Assembly: GCA_013289765.1 (NCBI GenBank)
Contig: JABCZI010000005.1
Span: forward strand, 124,001-188,000
Direction of reading: 5' to 3'
Length of the DNA stretch: 64,000 nucleotides
DNA from: Acidobacteriota bacterium
GTDB taxonomy: Bacteria > Acidobacteriota > Terriglobia > Terriglobales > Acidobacteriaceae
Numbering within the stretch: position 1 is the first letter of the stretch; every line of letters starts with the position of its first letter. Shown one piece after another: positions 7,451-35,506 of the stretch. The notes under the pieces are model-generated. The model was not told the DNA's origin and made no database searches. It saw only the letters and a program-made list of their open reading frames with translations. The position numbers were made by a program, and so were the translations under genes.

Positions 7451-8272
7451 ATGGCGACGACGACGCAGCCAGTGACCGGTGAAACGACCAAACAGCTTGT
7501 TAACTACCGCAGCGAGGGGGGCGTCGCGGTCATCGAGATGTGCGATCCGCCGGCGAATACTTATACCTACGAAATGAACCGGCAGTTGGACGAGGCCATC
7601 CTGCGCGCGCGCATGGAAAATGATGTCTACGTCATTTTGCTGACGGGAGCAGGGGACAAGTTTTTCTCTGCTGGCGCCAACATCAAGATGCTGTCGAGCG
7701 TCGATCCAACCTTCAAGTATTACTTCTGCCTACATGCCAACGAGATGCTGCTGCGGCTGGAGCACACACCAAAGCTGGTAATCGCTGCGATCAATGGCCA
7801 CTGCGTTGGAGGCGGCTTGGAAATTGCCATGGCTGCCGACATTCGCATTGCGCGCAAGGATGCTGGCAAGATCGGTCTGCCGGAAGTAAATCTCGGAGTT
7901 CTTCCCGGCACCGGCGGCACGCAGCGGCTCTCGCGGCTCGTGGGAAAGAGCAAAGCGATCGAATTGATGGTCACGGGCAACACGTTCTCTTTTGAGGAAG
8001 CGCAAGAGCTCGGCATTATCAATGACATCTACGAGCGCGACGGTTTCATGGAAAACATGATGGAATACGCGAAACAGTTTTGCCCGCCGAACAAGGCGGC
8101 TAAGGCCGTTGGACGGATTAAGCGCGCAGTCCAGACCGGCTGGGAGATTCCTATGGAATCGGCGCTGGCTGTCGAACGCGAGAACCAGCAGATACTTTTC
8201 CAGAGCGAAGATGCAAAGGAAGGCCTCGCCGCTTATGTAGAGAAGCGTCCCGCGGTTTTCAAGGCAAAATAA
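7451..8272 (+). CDS. enoyl-CoA hydratase/isomerase (crotonase) 1
   Basis: Hydrates or isomerises an enoyl-CoA. The crotonase signatures are complete: oxyanion-hole loop FFSAGANIKML (residues 71-81) and GHCVGGGLEIAMAADIR (117-132), with both catalytic glutamates of the hydratase type in place (Glu124 and Glu145, LPEVNLGVLPGTGGTQRL). The length of 273 is normal and too short for BoxC, the 550-residue ring-opening crotonase of the Box pathway. RBS AAGGAGC stands 7 nt before ATG. First gene of the operon; its TAA abuts the ATG of the aldehyde dehydrogenase. It could act on the ring-opened acyl-CoA. Confidence 0.9.
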   Translation: MATTTQPVTGETTKQLVNYRSEGGVAVIEMCDPPANTYTYEMNRQLDEAILRARMENDVYVILLTGAGDKFFSAGANIKMLSSVDPTFKYYFCLHANEMLLRLEHTPKLVIAAINGHCVGGGLEIAMAADIRIARKDAGKIGLPEVNLGVLPGTGGTQRLSRLVGKSKAIELMVTGNTFSFEEAQELGIINDIYERDGFMENMMEYAKQFCPPNKAAKAVGRIKRAVQTGWEIPMESALAVERENQQILFQSEDAKEGLAAYVEKRPAVFKAK

Positions 8273-25005: not shown

Positions 25006-25132
25006 GACTGGTGAACTGCAACCAAGTTTGCAAGCTCGCTTTCCAATTCAACCCGTTCGGCATTACCATAACAACGATTCGCTGCGACGATTCACTTCGG
25101 TAAACTCTTCTTCACAACGGGGACAGACGAAC

Positions 25133-28100
25133 ATGGGCGTTCAAATCTGGTTTAGCACTTTTGGAAAGATGTCGAAGTGGTTGCCGCTATGGCTGGCAAT
25201 ACTAGTGCTTTTGACGCAGAGCGCAGTTTTTGCCCAGACCAAACCGCAACGGCAATCGAAGGCGGTGAAGTCCAACCAATCTGCTACACCTGCGACCACT
25301 CCTGCCACGGAAGAAAAACTCGTTGCGGAAGAAGAGTCCAGCAAGCCCGAAGATAAGCCCTTCAAAGGGATGAAGTATCGCCTTATCGGTCCCTTCCGCG
25401 GCGGGCGTTCGCTAACCGCGGCTGGAATTCCCGGCGATCTGACAACCTATTATTTCGGCGCGACAGGCGGCGGGGTATGGAAGTCAACCGATGGCGCCAT
25501 GACCTGGTCGCCCGTCTTCGACAAACAGGGAACTGGAGATATTGGCAGCCTGGCCGTCGCTAATTCCGATCACAACACGATTTACGTCGGCACCGGAGAG
25601 GCTTGCCTGCGCGGCAATATTTCTCAGGGCGACGGAATCTATAAATCTTTGGACGCCGGTAAGACATGGAAGAATGTCGGCCTGCACGACAGCCGAGCTA
25701 TCGGCAAAGTCATCGTCAACCCGAATAATCCTGACATCGTTTTTGCAGCTGCTCTCGGCCATCCTTATGGGCCAAATACCGAGCGCGGAATTTTCCGCAC
25801 AATTGATGGTGGCAAAACCTGGGAGAAAGTTCTCTATAAGGACGAAAATACCGGAGGCGTCGACGTTGCATTCGATCCTCGCAATCCCAACATTCTTTTT
25901 GCTGCGCTGTGGCAGGTGCGGCGTAGTTCATGGAACATGAACGACGGCGGGCAGGGAAGCGGGCTGTATCGCTCGGCTGACGGCGGCACAACGTGGAAGC
26001 GGCTGGAAGAACATGGTCTACCGAAGGGTCCGTACGGCCGCATTGGGCTGGCTGTCGCGGCAAACTCGGATCGGGTGTACGCGCTGGTGGAGGCACGTAA
26101 TCCGGATGGCGGATTGTATCGTTCCGACGATGGAGGCGAGACTTGGGACTTCGTCAATCCCAGCCACAGTCTCTGGCAGCGGCCTTGGTATTACATGCAC
26201 ATCATTGCCGATCCGAGAGACGAAAACGTTGTCTACATCATGAATGTGGAAGCCTTCAAATCAACCGACGGCGGCCATCTTTTTAATAAGATAAAAGTAC
26301 CGCATGGGGACAATCACGGTTTATGGATCGATCCCAGCGATACGAGGCGGATGATCGCATCCAACGATGGGGGCGTGACAGTAAGTTTGGATGGCGGCAA
26401 GAACTGGACGCGCGAAGACAATCAACCCACCGCGCAGTTCTACCATGTCATTACTGACGGTGCTTGGCCCTATCGTGTCTATGGCTCGCAACAGGACTCC
26501 GGAACGGTGGCCATTGCCAGTCGGAGTGATGAGGGTTCGATTGACCGTCAGGACTGGTATGACGTAGGTGGAGGCGAGGCTGGTTACATCGCGCCCTATC
26601 CGCCGGATCCGAATGTTGTCTATGCCGCGGATTACCAGGGAAACATCACCCGCTACGACCGGCACATTGGGCAAGTGAAATCTATCACTGAGCAGCCGGA
26701 ACTTTCGGATGCCCTGGGGGCGGGTGTTCTTGAGCATCGTTTCCAGTGGACCGCGCCTGTGGTGATTTCTCCAAACGATCCCAACACGCTCTATCACGCA
26801 GGCGAGCGGCTGTTCAAGACCACGGATGGCGGAGTGCATTGGCAGGCAATCAGTCCGGACCTCACGCGTAACGATAAGAGCAAGCAGCAGCCTTCGGGTG
26901 GCGAGATTACGCTCGATGACACCGGCACCGAATACTACGACACCATCTTCGCTGTCGCTGAGTCGCCCATCGCGAAAGGCTTGATCTGGGTGGGCACCGA
27001 TGACGGTCTGATCCAAATTACTCGCGACGAAGGAAAGAACTGGACCAACGTGACGCCAAAAGATATGCCGGAGTGGAGCCGCGTCAGCCAGATCGACGCT
27101 TCATCGCTCGATGCCGGCACAGCCTATGTTGCCGTCGATCGCCATCAGAACGACGATCTGAAGCCCTACGTCTACAAAACTACTGACTACGGGAAAACCT
27201 GGACCAAGCTCACCAACGGAATTCCCGAGGGTAGTTTCGTTCGCGCGGTTCGCGAAGATCCGAAGAAGCGCGGTCTGCTCTACGCTGGAACAGAGGGCGG
27301 AGTCTATGTTTCTTTCAACGATGGAGCGGATTGGCGCCCACTCAAACTGAACCTGCCAGCTACGCCGGTTCACGACCTCATTGTCAAAGATAACGATCTT
27401 ATTGTGGCGACTCACGGTCGTGCGTTTTGGATTCTGGACGACATCAGCCCGTTGCGCCAGTTCAGCGACGATGTGCAGAAGAAGGCGGTACATCTTTATA
27501 CTCCGGGGCCGGCTTACCGTATTCAGGCTGGAGCGGATGGCGAACATCATCCTTCCAAGCGAACTGGGCAGAATCCGTCCGCTGGAGCAGTAATTTATTT
27601 CTATCTGGCGGATGCTCCGAAGGCGGGGACAGAAACGAAACTTGAGATTCTGGATGCTTCTGGAAAGACGATTCGCAAATATTCGAGTATCGAGACAAAA
27701 GCGCTCGACGAGCCACCGGATCCAGACGACAAGAAGCCGGAAAAAGAAATCAAACCCGAGGGCGGGTTGAACCGCTTCGTGTGGGATTTGCGTTATGAGG
27801 AAGCGCATCGCGTTCCGGGTTACTATCTCTGGGAATACGGCGGGGGAGCGAAAGGCCCGGTGGCCGCGCCGGGGAAATATCAAGTGCGTCTTACGGTAGG
27901 AGGAGAGAGTCAGGTTGCGCTGCTTGAGGTGAAATTGGATCCTCGGGTAAAAGTGGGCGAGGAAGATTTGGCGCAACAATTCGCCATGCAAATGCAACTT
28001 CATGACCAGCTCAACACTGTGTACGACGCGGTGAATCAAATTCAAGACGTGCGGTCGCAAATCGCCGGGCTGAAGCGGCGGCTGCCGCAAAATGCCAGCG

Positions 28101-28462
28101 CCAAGACGATTGCGGTTTCAGCTGACGATCTGGAGAAAAAACTGATAGCTGTCCGCGATCAGCTGGTCAACCTGACCATTAGCGCGAATGAAGATTCGCT
28201 TGCCTACCCGCCGCAACTCGACGCCAGGTTGGCGTATCTTGCGATGGACCTCGGAACAGCGGACTCTGCTCCCACACAAGCCGAACAGCTTCAATTCGAG
28301 AAGCTGAAACGGCAAACAACGGAGTTGTTGGGGCGCTGGGAGGATTTGCAAAGCCACGACCTTGCAACCTTCCGGAAACTGACTGCTGAAAGCAGCTTAT
28401 CGACCGTAGTGGTGCCTCCTGCAGGCCGAGTGGGAGAATCGGAAAATACCGAGAGTCACTAG
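25133..28462 (+). CDS. secreted Asp-box/sortilin-type beta-propeller protein
   Basis: A large exported protein of 1109 residues (start at 25133) with a signal peptide ending in QSAVFAQ. The bulk is a double propeller built from BNR/Asp-box repeats such as STDGAMTW, SLDAGKTW, TIDGGKTW, SADGGTTW and SDDGGETW. The C-terminal 250 residues form a separate region with FVWDLRYEEAHRVPGYYLWEYG, a fibronectin-like PGKYQVRLTV strand, and a helical end. It resembles the Vps10/sortilin-domain proteins that are common in Acidobacteriota and often annotated as glycosyl hydrolases; no catalytic residues were recognised. A later ATG at 25169 would start exactly at the hydrophobic segment, but its purine tract directly abuts the start. 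Confidence 0.8.
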   Translation: MGVQIWFSTFGKMSKWLPLWLAILVLLTQSAVFAQTKPQRQSKAVKSNQSATPATTPATEEKLVAEEESSKPEDKPFKGMKYRLIGPFRGGRSLTAAGIPGDLTTYYFGATGGGVWKSTDGAMTWSPVFDKQGTGDIGSLAVANSDHNTIYVGTGEACLRGNISQGDGIYKSLDAGKTWKNVGLHDSRAIGKVIVNPNNPDIVFAAALGHPYGPNTERGIFRTIDGGKTWEKVLYKDENTGGVDVAFDPRNPNILFAALWQVRRSSWNMNDGGQGSGLYRSADGGTTWKRLEEHGLPKGPYGRIGLAVAANSDRVYALVEARNPDGGLYRSDDGGETWDFVNPSHSLWQRPWYYMHIIADPRDENVVYIMNVEAFKSTDGGHLFNKIKVPHGDNHGLWIDPSDTRRMIASNDGGVTVSLDGGKNWTREDNQPTAQFYHVITDGAWPYRVYGSQQDSGTVAIASRSDEGSIDRQDWYDVGGGEAGYIAPYPPDPNVVYAADYQGNITRYDRHIGQVKSITEQPELSDALGAGVLEHRFQWTAPVVISPNDPNTLYHAGERLFKTTDGGVHWQAISPDLTRNDKSKQQPSGGEITLDDTGTEYYDTIFAVAESPIAKGLIWVGTDDGLIQITRDEGKNWTNVTPKDMPEWSRVSQIDASSLDAGTAYVAVDRHQNDDLKPYVYKTTDYGKTWTKLTNGIPEGSFVRAVREDPKKRGLLYAGTEGGVYVSFNDGADWRPLKLNLPATPVHDLIVKDNDLIVATHGRAFWILDDISPLRQFSDDVQKKAVHLYTPGPAYRIQAGADGEHHPSKRTGQNPSAGAVIYFYLADAPKAGTETKLEILDASGKTIRKYSSIETKALDEPPDPDDKKPEKEIKPEGGLNRFVWDLRYEEAHRVPGYYLWEYGGGAKGPVAAPGKYQVRLTVGGESQVALLEVKLDPRVKVGEEDLAQQFAMQMQLHDQLNTVYDAVNQIQDVRSQIAGLKRRLPQNASAKTIAVSADDLEKKLIAVRDQLVNLTISANEDSLAYPPQLDARLAYLAMDLGTADSAPTQAEQLQFEKLKRQTTELLGRWEDLQSHDLATFRKLTAESSLSTVVVPPAGRVGESENTESH

Positions 28463-29887: not shown

Positions 29888-30595
29888 ATGAAATTTGGAG
29901 TCATCATCTTTCCCGGTTCGAACTGCGACCACGACGCGTTCTGGACCATTCAACAGGTTGCCAGGCAGCCGGTAACTTTTCTTTGGCATGAATCTCATGA
30001 CCTTCAGAATTGCGATGCCATCATTGTGCCCGGAGGCTTCGCGTTTGGGGACTACCTGCGCACCGGCGCCATTGCCAAATTTTCTCCCGTGATGGATTCC
30101 GTACGCCGGTTTGCCGGTGGCGGAGGGCTGGTGTTGGGAATCTGCAACGGCTTCCAGATCCTGTGCGAGGCCGGTCTGCTGCCGGGAGCCCTGATGCGGA
30201 ACATCGGCCTGAAGTATGTTTGCAAACCGGTGCAAGTACGCGTGGAGAATGTTGCGACGCCTTTTACCAATGCATGTTCGCCAGGGGAAGTATTGACGAT
30301 CCCCATCGGACATATGGAAGGAAACTATTTCTGCGATCAACACACCTTGGATAGCTTGCGTCGAGAGAATCGCATCGTGTTCCGCTACGCAACCGCGACA
30401 GGTGAGATTTCGGCGGCGGCGAATCCGAACGGTTCGCTGGACAATATTGCCGGAATTTGCAGCCCAGGCGGTAACGTAGTTGGCATGATGCCTCATCCCG
30501 AAAGATCTTCCGAGCCCGAACTCGGCGGCACCGATGGAATGAAAATTTTCCATTCCATGATCGGGGCAATGACCGGCGCAATGAGCAGCAAATAA
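29888..30595 (+). CDS. purQ: phosphoribosylformylglycinamidine synthase, glutaminase subunit
   Basis: Supplies ammonia for the fourth step of purine synthesis (FGAR to FGAM). Class I amidotransferase: [11 protein letters not shown] at the start, [14 protein letters not shown], nucleophile Cys in [14 protein letters not shown], and the His/Glu of the triad in [11 protein letters not shown]. 235 residues, typical of the small PurQ of the PurSQL complex. The partners purS and purL are not in the window, so the gene stands alone here. Confidence 0.96.
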
Positions 30596-30749
30596 TCTCC
30601 TTCCTTCCCCTACTGTACGTTTCCGTACCGAGTAAAATTCTGTTTGAAAAATTCGCGCGTTGATGGTAGGTTTCTCGGCGAAAGTTGCTTCCCCTTTCGC
30701 CCAAATGGAATTGAAACGATTACGCAAAATAAAGGGAGAAGTGTGTCCG

Positions 30750-31895
30750 ATGACCGCGAAGCAGATTTTCGAGGCTTTTTCTGAAACGTTAATGCACGAT
30801 GAGCGAATCCTCAGCCCCCGAGAACGGGAATTGCTCACGAACATTTTGCAGACCTCCAGAACAGTCTCTAACAGCAATCCGGAGACTCAATCCGCTGTAG
30901 CAGCGGCGATAGCCCGGTCAGTCGGTGAAACCGTAGCTCAGCGGGCATTTACACTTTTGGGTGGCAGCATTGTCGAGCAGATTTTGGCAGGCGGGGGAAT
31001 CTCAGTTGGAGGAGAAATTTCTCCTGCCACCACAGTGCAGTTTGGGGTTCCTCAGCCCCCGAGCAAAGTTCCCCAACCCCCGAGCGGACCCGGGCCAAAA
31101 GGTGTTCCACAGCCGCCGGGCAAAGGTGCTCCCCACCATCATCCACATCATCCTGGTGTTCCTCAACCTCCCGGCGGGCCGCAAGGTGTTCCACAGCCGC
31201 CGAGCGGCCCTCAAGGTCTGAGACCGGAATCGGTACCGGTGCAGTCGGGAGCACAGCAAGGTCGACTCGATTCGAGAAGCAGCGTGGGTCTGGATACGCC
31301 TGCGACTATGCACACAGCAAGCGTCGTCCTGGATGAGTTTCTGGCTCCTCACGAACTCGATGAGCTTATTGCCTATACACTGCGGCACGAGGAAGACTTC
31401 CAGAACAGTGAAGTGATTTCGCCTAGCGGAGAGCCTGGCGTCGTCGATTTTTCGCATCGCCGTTCGCGAGTGCTCATGGACTTGGGAAAACATCAGGAAG
31501 TTATTCTCGAACGAATTCGCTGCGTGCTCCCGAGGGTGCTGTCTCAGTTGGGGATCGAGGAGTTTCCCATCACCGACGTAGAGGCACAGATCACGGCCAG
31601 TAATGATGGAGACTTTTTCGCGACACATAGCGACGATGCACAAGAAGCAATCGCGTCCCGCCGCGTCACCTTCGTTTACTTCTTCCACAGAGAGCCGCGC
31701 CCATTCGAAGGCGGCGAGTTGCGCCTCTTTGACTCGTCCGGCGACCACGGCCGCGGCTATCAAACTATCGTGCCGCAGCAAAACCAGATTGTATTTTTCC
31801 CGTGCTCCGTTTCGCACGAGATAACCCGCGTGGCATGCCCTTCGAGGGCTTTCGCTGACAGCCGCTTCACTTTAAACGGATGGCTTCACAAGTAA
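30750..31895 (+). CDS. leader-like domain, VPQPP-repeat linker and P4H-type 2OG-Fe(II) oxygenase
   Basis: A 381-residue protein of three parts. Residues 1-80 are helical and resemble a leader or docking peptide (MTAKQIFEAFSETLMHDERI, then SVGETVAQRAFTLLGGSIVE, then a Gly-Gly stretch). Residues 99-156 are a low-complexity linker with five VPQPP units and a His run, HHHPHH. Residues 185-381 are a prolyl-4-hydroxylase-like dioxygenase: Fe ligands His293, Asp295 (HSD) and His356 (SHEITRV), and Arg372 (SRFTLNGW) for 2-oxoglutarate. ATG 30750 has AGGGAGAA upstream; an ATG at 30660 would add 30 basic residues and lacks support. The last 16 nt overlap the next gene, another putative 2OG oxygenase. 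Inference: it may hydroxylate prolines, possibly its own linker. Confidence 0.8.
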   Translation: MTAKQIFEAFSETLMHDERILSPRERELLTNILQTSRTVSNSNPETQSAVAAAIARSVGETVAQRAFTLLGGSIVEQILAGGGISVGGEISPATTVQFGVPQPPSKVPQPPSGPGPKGVPQPPGKGAPHHHPHHPGVPQPPGGPQGVPQPPSGPQGLRPESVPVQSGAQQGRLDSRSSVGLDTPATMHTASVVLDEFLAPHELDELIAYTLRHEEDFQNSEVISPSGEPGVVDFSHRRSRVLMDLGKHQEVILERIRCVLPRVLSQLGIEEFPITDVEAQITASNDGDFFATHSDDAQEAIASRRVTFVYFFHREPRPFEGGELRLFDSSGDHGRGYQTIVPQQNQIVFFPCSVSHEITRVACPSRAFADSRFTLNGWLHK

Positions 31896-32929
31896 AAGAC
31901 ACGGCATGGCTTGAATGGATAGCAGGCCTGATGGGGCGAGGGTCGCGGCAGACACGGACTGCGACTTTGCCCCCAGGTCAGTTCCATTGTCTGCTCGATG
32001 AATTGCCACTGCACCTGATCCCGCAGCGCGAATTCGACGTTGCGCAGTTGGGCCGGAACCCCCCTAATCATCCATTATTCCTTGACCCACTCTGTGTGCT
32101 TTTGTCGGACGGCCGAGTTCCGGAGGAACTGGAATTGCACCGGGATTTGCTGGAGAATTTCAATTTGCAGGGAACCGTGGCCTGGGTCAAGGATCCAGCA
32201 ACCCTGTCTCTATCTCCCTTTTGGCTAAGTCCGCGATTGGAAGCCATCGTTTCGCTTTTTCCCCCGGGGGAACCGGCGCCCGATTCACTTTCGAGTAATT
32301 TGCGTCTCCTGCTGGCAACCGCTGGTATTTTGACGCGCGAAGATGAGGCCGGGCGCCGTACCTCAGAATGGGATGACATCGTCAGGGAAAGTGCCAGGGA
32401 GTTTCGTGAAAAGGGATACGTCGCGATCGCCAACTTGATTCATCCCTTCAATCTGGCGGCGCTGCGGCGTTATTACCGGCATGCAGTGCGGCGAAAATCC
32501 ATTCCGCTTGGGGACGAGCAATGTCCGCTGCGATATGGCGTGCATAACGAGAAGGTGGCGCGGTTCTTCCACCATCAGATCGCGAAGCCGCTAGCAGCCA
32601 TCGTAGGAGAAGCAATCAAGCCTTCTTATGTTTATTCGGCCTCTTACCTAAGCGGCGCCGAACTGAAGAAGCATATTGATCGGCAGCAATGCGAATTCAG
32701 CGTGACGTTATGCCTGGATTTTTCGCCCGAACCCAAGATGGCCACCTCGTGGCCAATACTTCTCGATACGGTTGCGGGAACCGTAGAGGTCTATCAGGCG
32801 TTGGGCGACGGCCTGGTCTACCGGGGAACAAGACTGCCTCATTACCGCGATGTTCTGGCCGAGGGACATATGTCGACGTCCATTTTCTTTCATTACGTGC
32901 CCGCGGATTTTTCGGGCGGGCTCGATTAG
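31880..32929 (+). CDS. second 2OG-Fe(II) oxygenase-like protein
   Basis: A 349-residue protein starting inside the end of the preceding oxygenase gene (16-nt overlap, translational coupling). The C-terminal half looks like a 2-oxoglutarate/Fe(II) dioxygenase: YSASYLSGAELKKHIDRQQ gives His265 and Asp267, and GDGLVYRGTRLPHYRD gives the distal His321, followed by SIFFHYV. The N-terminal half (about 1-160) is not recognised; it contains PHL/PLF-rich segments and LRLLLATAGILTRED, like a winged-helix binding region. Membership is weaker than for its neighbour because the 2OG-binding Arg is not evident. The two genes presumably act together. Confidence 0.65.
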   Translation: MASQVKDTAWLEWIAGLMGRGSRQTRTATLPPGQFHCLLDELPLHLIPQREFDVAQLGRNPPNHPLFLDPLCVLLSDGRVPEELELHRDLLENFNLQGTVAWVKDPATLSLSPFWLSPRLEAIVSLFPPGEPAPDSLSSNLRLLLATAGILTREDEAGRRTSEWDDIVRESAREFREKGYVAIANLIHPFNLAALRRYYRHAVRRKSIPLGDEQCPLRYGVHNEKVARFFHHQIAKPLAAIVGEAIKPSYVYSASYLSGAELKKHIDRQQCEFSVTLCLDFSPEPKMATSWPILLDTVAGTVEVYQALGDGLVYRGTRLPHYRDVLAEGHMSTSIFFHYVPADFSGGLD

Positions 32930-32956: not shown

Positions 32957-35506
32957 TTACCGCAAACCGGAAATCAAATAAAGCACGGAGAAAACCTGAT
33001 AATAGCTGTATGCCCAGCGCGAACCGTCACGGTTCACAACCACCGGAGCAATCGAAACTACCCCTACATTGCTTTCGGGTTGCAATTCCTGGACGACCGT
33101 CTTCTTTCCTGTGACCAGGTTGACCTTGTATAACCCGGTCGGAGCCTGCCCCGGACGATATCCGTAAACCGCCGCACTATCTTCCGTCCACCGAATTGGA
33201 CTAAAACCTGCTTCCAGGTTGGGAATGGGACGCGCTGCCCCTCCGGCGATAGGATATACAGCGACTAATCCGGCGTCGTTGGCTCGAATAATATATTGCC
33301 CATCGGGCGAAACCAATCCTCCGGTAATCCCTTCCGGAGTGATAGGTACCGGTTTTCCTCCCTCCAGATCCACCAGATAACAGCGCGCTGCGCGTCCGGG
33401 TTCGTTGGCGATTAGAGTAATGCGCTTTCCATCCGCCAGAAAATGAGCGGATCCGTTATGAATCTGCTCCAGGCCTGATGTAGCAATCCTGCGGGATTGG
33501 CCAGGCCCGATGGGGATGAGCTTCACCTCTCCTGGGCTACCGGGAAGAATTGAAATGGCCCATTTACCGTCTGGAGAAAGTCCGCCCCCGCTCCCTTCAC
33601 CTAATTCCACAGGCAGAGTTCCGTCGATTTTGCGAATCGCGAGTGCATAGTGGGCTCCGGCGGCCGAACTGGAATCTTCGAACAAGACCGACTGGCCATC
33701 TGGCGAAATATCCTTGGCAATACTCCAGTCGTGCCACGAGAGATCCACGGGTTTGCCATCTCGCGTAGCAGTGGCCAGCGCCAGCCGCTCGGCATCCAAG
33801 CTCACCAACACTCGACCATCCGGAGCTACATCCTCCAGGGTCATGCCTTCAGGTAAATCCAGAATTCTTCGAAGTCGTCCGGACAAATCCGCTGCGAGCA
33901 GATCACGGTTCGTACCCTTTTCGACTCCGGTGAACCAGACTTCTTTTCCATTGGGGCTCCAGGCCAGCCCGGCCTCAGAAACCCACTCTGGCGTAAGCAC
34001 GGTCATATGGCCGCTCAGGTCGATCGACGCAACCCAGCCGCGGTCATCCCAAAGAGCAGGATGGTCCATGAAAGCGATCTTGTCGGAATGAGGAGAAAAA
34101 CGCACGTGGCTGATCCATCCGTTGCTCTGGTAAAGAACGTGGCCGATGGGATATTCGATGCGATCGCGCCCAAGAGTATGGTGGACGACGGCGAGTTCGC
34201 CCTTCGCATCCCAATCCGCCCAGGACACATCTTCAAGGATTTCCCGCGGCGAGCCGCCCGCCAGCGGAGTTCGGGCGAGCATGCCGGAGGTTTCCAGATG
34301 TGCTAAGTGAGTTCCGTGTAGTGTTATCGCCAGTTCACCCGTGCGCGAAATCGCGAGCAGGTTCGCATCCGTTACATTCAGCGGCTGGGTCAGAAGGGAA
34401 TCGCCCACAGTGGAGAACAGCTGCAGCGGTTTGCCGTTCCATGCCGCCCCGTAAACAATCGCCTGAAAATCTGGACCAAAGCGCGCCGAGTAAACCGTTC
34501 CAGCTTCAAAGGTCAGGCGGTGATAGGAGAGAGAGCTCGTCTTCTCGCGCCACCGGCTCGCCAGAAGCAACAAGGTCGCAGCTAGGAGCACTCCGGCGAT
34601 TGCCCAGGGGACAACCTTCACTGGCTTGCGAAATGAGCGACCGCGGCTGGCACGTCCACTCGGTGCGTTGGCAAGGGTATCCAGCGCAAAAGCGAGATCG
34701 CGAGCCGACTGAAATCGATTCTCTGGATCTTTCTCCAGGCAATGGTGAATCACTTGCTGGAAAGCTACGGGAATACCGGCCTCCTCCAGATTGATCGCAG
34801 GTGGATCTTCTCGAAGGACCGCCGTAATTGTGTCAACCTCGGTCTCACCGCGAAAAGCTCGGCGGCCGGTCAGCATTTCATAGAGGATCGCGCCTACGCT
34901 GAAGATGTCGCTACGATGGTCTACCGCTTTGCCGCGCAATTGCTCCGGCGACATGTAAGCGACGGTGCCGATTACGGTGCCGCTCTTGGTGACCGTGGTT
35001 AGATCTTCTACGGGACGATCGGATCCTTCCGGCGCCGACTGCAGTTTTGCCACTCCGAAATCCAGTATCTTGATCCGGCCCTCGGTAGTAACGAATAAGT
35101 TTTCCGGCTTCAGATCGCGGTGGATGATGCGTCTATCGTGCGCTGCGATGAGTCCTTGAACGATTTGCAAAGAATAGTCAGCGGCTAGGCGTAGAGTAAG
35201 GGCTCCTTCGGCCAACCGCTTGCGCAGGGTTTTGCCCTCTAATAACTCACAAACGATGTACGGAGAACCTTCATTGAAGCCGACGTCATAGATGGCGACA
35301 ATGTTGGGATGATTCAGCGCAGCTGCGGCACGAGCTTCGAGCTCGAACCGGCGGAGGTGATCCGGGTTGTCGCTGGATGCGGGCCGTATTAGCTTCAGAG
35401 CGACATCGCGCCCCAACCTCTCATCGCGCGCCCGAAACACATCTCCCATTGCTCCGGAGCCGATCTTTTCTAGCACGCGGTAATGACTTATGAGTGGACC
35501 AGTCAT
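32957..35506 (-). CDS. Ser/Thr protein kinase with membrane helix and TolB-like propeller
   Basis: Membrane-anchored PknB-type kinase of 849 residues. The kinase domain (about 8-270) has the Gly loop IGSGAMGDVFRARD, the VALKLI Lys, HRDLKPENLF, DFGVAKL and GTVAYMSPEQL. One transmembrane helix (VVPWAIAGVLLAATLLLLAS) follows near 305. The C-terminal 500 residues are a WD40/TolB-like sensor propeller with repeats such as SPDGKWAISIL and SPDGQYIIRA. This layout is abundant in Acidobacteriota. Convergent with the oxygenase pair, 27 nt apart; no functional relation is shown. Confidence 0.95.
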   Translation of the reverse strand: MTGPLISHYRVLEKIGSGAMGDVFRARDERLGRDVALKLIRPASSDNPDHLRRFELEARAAAALNHPNIVAIYDVGFNEGSPYIVCELLEGKTLRKRLAEGALTLRLAADYSLQIVQGLIAAHDRRIIHRDLKPENLFVTTEGRIKILDFGVAKLQSAPEGSDRPVEDLTTVTKSGTVIGTVAYMSPEQLRGKAVDHRSDIFSVGAILYEMLTGRRAFRGETEVDTITAVLREDPPAINLEEAGIPVAFQQVIHHCLEKDPENRFQSARDLAFALDTLANAPSGRASRGRSFRKPVKVVPWAIAGVLLAATLLLLASRWREKTSSLSYHRLTFEAGTVYSARFGPDFQAIVYGAAWNGKPLQLFSTVGDSLLTQPLNVTDANLLAISRTGELAITLHGTHLAHLETSGMLARTPLAGGSPREILEDVSWADWDAKGELAVVHHTLGRDRIEYPIGHVLYQSNGWISHVRFSPHSDKIAFMDHPALWDDRGWVASIDLSGHMTVLTPEWVSEAGLAWSPNGKEVWFTGVEKGTNRDLLAADLSGRLRRILDLPEGMTLEDVAPDGRVLVSLDAERLALATATRDGKPVDLSWHDWSIAKDISPDGQSVLFEDSSSAAGAHYALAIRKIDGTLPVELGEGSGGGLSPDGKWAISILPGSPGEVKLIPIGPGQSRRIATSGLEQIHNGSAHFLADGKRITLIANEPGRAARCYLVDLEGGKPVPITPEGITGGLVSPDGQYIIRANDAGLVAVYPIAGGAARPIPNLEAGFSPIRWTEDSAAVYGYRPGQAPTGLYKVNLVTGKKTVVQELQPESNVGVVSIAPVVVNRDGSRWAYSYYQVFSVLYLISGLR

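Follow-up and report, generated by a model that had tools for sequence, protein, structure and literature searches.

How does a bacterial enzyme resembling prolyl hydroxylases come to carry a proline-rich repeat within its own polypeptide, and might this repeat be its substrate? The question is raised by two overlapping genes in a 64,000-nucleotide stretch of a soil Acidobacteriota bacterium of the family Acidobacteriaceae (assembly GCA_013289765.1, contig JABCZI010000005.1, positions 124,001 to 188,000 of the forward strand), hereafter the window. The first gene, P1 (30750..31895, + strand, 381 aa), is an open reading frame (ORF) that joins an N-terminal helical domain, a Pro-rich repeat and a prolyl 4-hydroxylase (P4H)-like 2-oxoglutarate (2OG) oxygenase matched by PF13640. 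The second, P2 (31880..32929, +, 349 aa), encodes a putative 2OG-Fe(II) oxygenase with an unrecognised N-terminal region and overlaps P1 by 16 nt (31880..31895, +). An earlier note on this DNA had placed both ORFs and their overlap exactly and had taken the Pro-rich linker for a substrate. As a whole, a pair of peptide-tailoring oxygenases with a Pro-rich substrate fused to P1 appears to be the best explanation, to which we assign a probability of roughly 0.45, i.e., somewhat below even odds. Hereafter, G numbers denote genomes, L numbers denote loci, and f7 is another family than that of the window.

Architecture of the fused oxygenase P1

The catalytic domain of P1 (31299..31892, +) is a P4H-like 2OG-Fe(II) oxygenase domain, whose PF13640 match reaches an E of 1e-16 and 62.1 bits against a curated cut-off of 27. 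The presumed iron ligands H293-x-D295 (31626..31634, +) and H356 (31815..31817, +) as well as R372 (31863..31865, +)—which, from family knowledge, we take to be the 2OG carboxylate ligand—fall into invariant columns of a 30-row catalytic alignment; the complete Fe and 2OG residues of a P4H-like dioxygenase, as claimed earlier, are all in place. The catalytic profile matches the solved prolyl 4-hydroxylase 6t8m at an E of 8.2e-8, with weaker matches by single sequence and by model (3kt1, YbiX models). Together with the H-x-D…H…R arrangement, which P1 has in common with prolyl 4-hydroxylases and PKHD-type enzymes, this suggests that P1 is related to prolyl 4-hydroxylases; we know of no member of this group that bears a Pro-rich substrate in cis. 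Family matches of P1 are to oxygenase families only, with no N-methyltransferase domain among them. The ratio of nonsynonymous to synonymous changes (pN/pS) of the catalytic domain amounts to 0.13–0.21 in seven close pairs of the window's genus, several of which have a synonymous divergence (dS) above 1.

The Pro-rich repeat segment, the candidate substrate, spans residues 98–163 (31041..31238, +). It holds five VPQPP units beginning at residues 100, 107, 119, 137 and 147 (31047..31061, 31068..31082, 31104..31118, 31158..31172 and 31188..31202, all +) and a His run, HHHPHH, at residues 129–134 (31134..31151, +), just as the earlier note had counted them. Only the window's species was seen to have the His run, 1 of 29 fused genus proteins—these comprise the 28 genomes with an intact fused ORF plus L022. 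The repeat is not a chance composition, since none of the other mechanically called window ORFs with 150 aa or more (48 including P1) has so Pro-rich a 60-aa stretch—38% Pro in P1, 20% in the runner-up—and the DNA of P1 contains a 30-bp tandem repeat of 2.1 copies (31155..31217, +).

Among homologues, the inter-domain segment is Pro-rich in all 29 fused genus proteins and in both f7 homologues (31/31), and the repeat unit differs by species: VPQPPSGP, APQPPTPGP and KEPDPPGVRAPTKPLREAPLPPSP are found, and GGPGPK in family f7. Cutting the segment at window residue 165 gives a Pro content of 27–42% for 30 linkers (L083 and those of the 29 genus rows), of which 27 contain PQPP; L097 was judged by eye. 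Up to the catalytic domain, the linker of the fused genus proteins is 61–141 aa long. In 20 of 31 linker DNAs, arrays were detected with Tandem Repeats Finder, and the repeat turnover hence resembles slippage and homogenisation.

In front of the repeat lies the N-terminal domain (residues 1–89; 30750..31016, +), for which four helices are predicted at low confidence. Judged by a pN/pS of 0.06–0.24 in the same seven genus pairs and of 0.31 in the f7 pair, it is under purifying selection. The earlier note had proposed a search for free-standing proteins sharing this region; among the matches listed, the profile search returned fused P1 proteins only (2 of 297 phylum genomes and 5 of 299 class genomes) and no free-standing copy. 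A suspected resemblance to TerB is unsupported by Pfam. A Gly-Gly stretch, also pointed out earlier, is present at residues 71–72, but it is not a conserved cleavage motif, as it is found at that position in only 23 of 29 fused genus proteins and in neither f7 homologue, and lies about 27 residues before the repeat.

The putative second oxygenase and the inheritance of the pair

P2 bears an H-x-D…H facial triad, H265-x-D267 (32672..32680, +) and H321 (32840..32842, +), which is invariant in 19 of 19 alignment rows; P2 may be an active oxygenase. Roughly 10 residues after the distal His no R or K is conserved; R323 at position H+2 is invariant in the 19 rows, and the model of the region after this His has a predicted local distance difference test (pLDDT) score below 50. 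Neither Pfam nor NCBIfam returns a significant match for P2, whose sole Pfam row is RTE1 at a non-significant E of 0.18, and a Pfam match at E ≤0.1, which could have placed P2 in a curated oxygenase family, is missing from all 32 family members. Oxygenase-family matches of distant P2 relatives are weak and all below cut-off. The earlier reading of P2 as a putative dioxygenase with an unrecognised N-terminus stands as such, with no known oxygenase family found. A comparison of P1 with P2 by hhalign detected no relation. Predicted structures reach a mean pLDDT of 52 for P2 (10-row alignment) and of 57.6 for the N-terminal domain of P1 (nine-row alignment), and Foldseek gave no significant match with either model (best row for P2: HalB, E 1.3), so that no fold is assigned to them.

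Of 32 pairs, 28 have an overlap of 16 nt between the P1 stop and the P2 start, three one of 22 nt and a single pair one of 17 nt. Because this short overlap is kept across all 32 pairs, other genera included, translation of P1 and P2 is probably coupled. The start of P1 is the ATG at 30750, with an in-frame GTG at 30741 as alternative.

A P1 search of 61 genomes matched 31 of the 37 genomes of the window's genus and none of the 24 others. The fused ORF is intact in 28 of these 31; in the remainder it is split over contig ends (G015), interrupted by a frame break (G036) or present in pieces with no P2 (G028). At 15 of 17 genus loci checked, the order is a purQ-type glutamine amidotransferase (29888..30595, +, in the window), P1, P2 and a convergent Ser/Thr protein kinase (32957..35506, −). 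The exceptions are L032, where the contig edge comes before purQ, and L038 of G028, which has purQ and neither P2 nor the kinase. Given this occurrence and order, the P1–P2 pair is an inherited fixture of the genus and not a mobile island. A Pfam family was found for 9 of the 10 neighbours scanned at the window locus, mostly of housekeeping type.

Relatives with fused, separate and absent repeats

The fused form extends beyond the genus. When the class was searched with the catalytic profile of P1, 11 of 250 genomes matched at E ≤1e-20, including G600 of family f7, and a search of f7 itself gave G600 and G678 (2/89 genomes). Both carry a divergent N-terminal domain and GGPGPK-type linker repeats, with P1 followed by P2; the N-terminal domain of G600 is 41–46% identical to the genus rows, and G600 shares the convergent kinase (53% identical).

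In G180 (L053), the repeat stands apart: a 68-aa ORF (7660–7866, +) with PKPGPVPGAAPTA-type repeats, preceded by the Shine-Dalgarno sequence AAGGAG, is situated directly upstream of a short P1, which adjoins the same convergent kinase as the pair in the window. A scan of 36 partly overlapping loci larger than 8 kb for ORFs of 40–160 aa with at least 25% Pro and a ribosome-binding site of at least five bases yielded two in 509 kb, namely the G180 ORF and an unrelated one; it found none in the window, where 20% Pro and four bases give three. The laxer scan (20% Pro, four bases) of 16 P1/P2 loci returned only the G180 ORF, with two nested starts, and is blind to the 10%-Pro peptide of L078 described below. 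Since no N-terminal domain was found in the G180 genome among the candidates scored (17 of 31 and of 41), its repeat seems to link nothing. The fused forms make up one group (91/83) in a tree of 24 catalytic domains, and L053 and the other pairs fall outside it. The tree was rejected as proof that the fusion arose from separate genes; it took 16 of the 29 fused genus rows, and L053 is a long branch of unsure placement.

Four P1–P2 pairs were found to lack the fused repeat: L052 (G189), L041 (G031, its second pair), L077 (G436) and the said L053. According to the earlier note, homologues without repeats would make the linker a mere spacer. Such homologues do exist, but all four lack the N-terminal domain as well, and that conclusion does not follow from them; the idea that the absence of the repeat from L041, L052 and L077 settles the spacer question was rejected, as with the domain absent they cannot decide between spacer and substrate. 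As a side observation, the repeat-less pairs adjoin two giant ORFs in L041:7924-14990 (1539 and 965 aa) and L052:10292-17707 (1390 and 1077 aa), both without Pfam match in L052. Glycosyltransferases recur beside them, by Pfam in L041:4244-6241 and L077:8782-10593, and by eye, with no Pfam match, in L053:6552-7466. This recurrence would fit sugar transfer onto hydroxylated residues.

More distant relatives are found partly in settings typical of ribosomally synthesized and post-translationally modified peptides (RiPPs). P2 relatives occur in 5 of 297 phylum genomes and in 12 of 119 genomes of the order of G301. In G301 and G361, P2-like genes lie beside PqqD-domain proteins with an SRRQ-type stretch and a Cys/Pro-rich tail; the curated PqqD cut-off is met by both G301 proteins and missed by the G361 protein, and G386 has, by eye, a similar PqqD-type neighbour cut by the contig end. 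At L054:2694-6473 and L069:6152-6745, beside P2-like genes, a PqqD-type domain is fused to a hydrophobic stretch, which is SRRQ/TAT-like, and to a Cys/Pro-rich tail. These proteins look like precursors that carry their own recognition domain.

In G379 (L078), a short P2-like gene neighbours a peptide of 89 aa, which carries QPSPGG repeats as well as a double-glycine leader and is matched by the mersacidin-type leader model at an E of 0.02, below cut-off. The locus (L078:1915-3060, G379:C658) comprises the P2-like oxygenase, the peptide with four QPSPG-type repeats, a JmjC-like gene and a 436-aa gene, and is possibly a Pro-rich RiPP locus. The peptide resembles P1 in that a leader and Q-P repeats occur beside a P2-like oxygenase; it differs in being free-standing, of 89 aa, with another leader, and is a single, uncharacterised case. 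On another contig of this genome (G379:C403; L103, L105 and L106), several double-Gly-leader peptides have short K/P/G-rich tails, and TfuA- and YcaO-like genes as well as a P4H-like oxygenase are seen by eye. The P2-like genes of L070–L075 show no leader-peptide neighbour by eye.

Among plasmid records, 5 have P2-like and 10 have P1-like genes; six regions were read, covering 8 of the 15 matches. Two plasmids have both. In Hyphomicrobiales UR115, P1 and P2 are 4 nt apart in a lasso-type cluster. Behind them come a gene with weak similarity to ATP-grasp enzymes, an Asn-synthetase (best model lasso cyclase, 200.8 bits at a cut-off of 525), a lasso-type PqqD (77.7 bits at a cut-off of 80), what by eye is a sulfotransferase, and a gene that weakly matches HprK. 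In the other, Eleftheria terrae, P2 is fused to a sulfotransferase, and this fusion directly follows a P1-like gene whose N-terminal part is long and unrelated (L108:6275-9771). P1-like genes are further found in Azospirillum oryzae, where a lasso cluster has an annotated B2 protein and PqqD; in a lasso-type locus of G504, next to genes resembling a cyclase and HprK; and in a Pseudanabaena cluster, next to LanM and Nif11 precursors.

Substrate, spacer or action in trans

In the favored explanation, P1 and P2 would be translationally coupled 2OG-Fe(II) oxygenases of a ribosomal-peptide-tailoring kind, and the Pro-rich repeat peptide would be their substrate, fused to P1 behind the conserved helical domain. 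This domain may act as a recognition or assembly handle—a leader-like role—either for P2 or for self-assembly. The P4H domain would then, with P2, hydroxylate repeat prolines in cis or between copies, proline being the presumed target residue, and P2 perhaps modifies another residue in the repeat. Pro richness that is kept in 31 of 31 segments despite changing units, the separate G180 ORF and the RiPP-type loci argue for the substrate that the earlier note had seen in the linker. A more specific history is less likely than not: a formerly separate repeat peptide, still separate in G180, may have been fused between a recognition domain and a prolyl hydroxylase, with the second oxygenase completing the modification to a species-specific hydroxylated polyproline.

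A number of points weigh against a substrate role. Repeat hydroxylation is a prediction from sequence, and spacers rich in Pro are widespread and likewise diverge quickly when their repeats slip. PxP reaches a z of at least 2 against shuffles in only 3 of 30 linkers, with z ≤0 in 21; as it is not enriched in the other 27, only composition is conserved in the repeat, and the claim rests on Pro content and not on a motif. For the N-terminal domain, neither Pfam nor NCBIfam gives a significant match, leader families included; of the leader-like helical N-terminus described earlier, the helices are predicted at low confidence. Nor was a match of the N-terminal region of P2 to PqqD obtained with hhalign, where a three-row PqqD alignment against the N-termini of seven P2 relatives gave a probability of 0.1%, with shallow profiles. 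Among the ten neighbours scanned in the window, no protease, exporter or other RiPP gene was recognised. No Pro-rich ORF was found near the P1–P2 pairs of L041, L052 and L077 or, by eye, near that of Eleftheria. The G180 ORF is in frame with P1, its stop TAG 15 nt before the P1 ATG, and a recent split of a fused gene is hence possible. For the QPSPGG peptide there is just one instance, on a contig of 4.6 kb, and several P1- or P2-like genes also occur outside RiPP-type loci: a P1-like gene in Gloeocapsa with a nonribosomal peptide synthetase (NRPS) nearby, a P2-like gene in an NRPS locus and, by eye, the genes of G238 and G601.

The main rival takes the Pro-rich segment for a plain, extended and flexible spacer, which holds a helical dimerisation or docking domain off an ordinary peptidyl oxygenase and would drift freely as long as it stays disordered and stiff. 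It persists because the repeat conserves no more than its composition, and it agrees with the variable linker length (61–141 aa), the change of units between lineages, the tandem arrays expected from slippage turnover and the lack of PxP enrichment. We nevertheless consider it less likely than a substrate role, as the G180 segment stands as an ORF of its own that no domain precedes, and so links nothing, and as in none of the 31 fused homologues read does the N-terminal domain come with a linker of other composition. Still less probable is that the target of P1 and P2 lies in trans, in some other cellular protein or peptide, the Pro-rich segment docking P2 or this target; a ribosomal protein, an unlinked peptide or EF-Tu, a substrate of prolyl hydroxylation, would be candidates. 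Such action gains from the repeat-less pairs, which adjoin other candidate substrates in the two giant proteins of L041 and L052 as well as tailoring genes—the glycosyltransferases and the sulfotransferase fusion of Eleftheria—and from a known prolyl hydroxylase that acts on uS12 (PMC4396695). Yet the genus pair keeps the same housekeeping-type neighbours at 15 of 17 loci, with no other candidate substrate among them, and no free-standing N-terminal domain is present among the matches listed. That the locus is a decaying relic, its fusion an evolutionary by-product and its repeat devoid of present function, would fit the 6 of 37 genus genomes without a match and the broken P1 of G028; it is very improbable in view of purifying selection on the N-terminal and catalytic domains, invariant presumed catalytic residues and the mostly intact ORFs.

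Returning to the peptide-tailoring pair, an enzyme–substrate fusion is already known, and P1–P2 is not a categorically new system. In borosins (OphMA type), according to PMC7878506, a peptide N-methyltransferase is fused to its own core peptide, a precedent for the precursor–enzyme fusion that the earlier note had called unusual. P1 likewise combines a modifying enzyme and a candidate substrate in one polypeptide. It differs in being an oxygenase and in that its repeat precedes the enzyme, whereas the borosin core is at the C-terminus; no protease gene was recognised near P1–P2, and self-modification of P1 is hypothetical. In the corallotide system CorA/CorC, a PF13640 oxygenase hydroxylates repeated motifs of a large precursor, and another graspetide cluster has an oxygenase pair, SmaO/SmaX (PMC13097080). 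Oxygenase type, repeat-bearing (here candidate) substrate and pairing are shared with P1–P2. In corallotide, however, Lys is hydroxylated after cyclisation by a graspetide synthetase, and the precursor is separate (PMC13097080); no graspetide synthetase is among the window genes scanned. Literature searches for enzyme-fused or proline-hydroxylating bacterial precursors brought up no prolyl hydroxylase fused to a Pro-rich substrate, a weak negative as most subscription journals were outside the search.

If the substrate role holds, oxygenases would be added to a small set of modifying enzymes with a peptide substrate built in. Related bacteria would then show such a substrate both separate and fused, species-specific hydroxylated polyproline repeats would become available for study, and there would be an easy way into two oxygenase families with little description so far, that of P2 in particular.

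Further upstream of P1, at 25028-28462, the window contains an 1144-aa ORF with sortilin/VPS10-type and BNR-repeat matches, and a relative of it lies on the same side in several genus loci.

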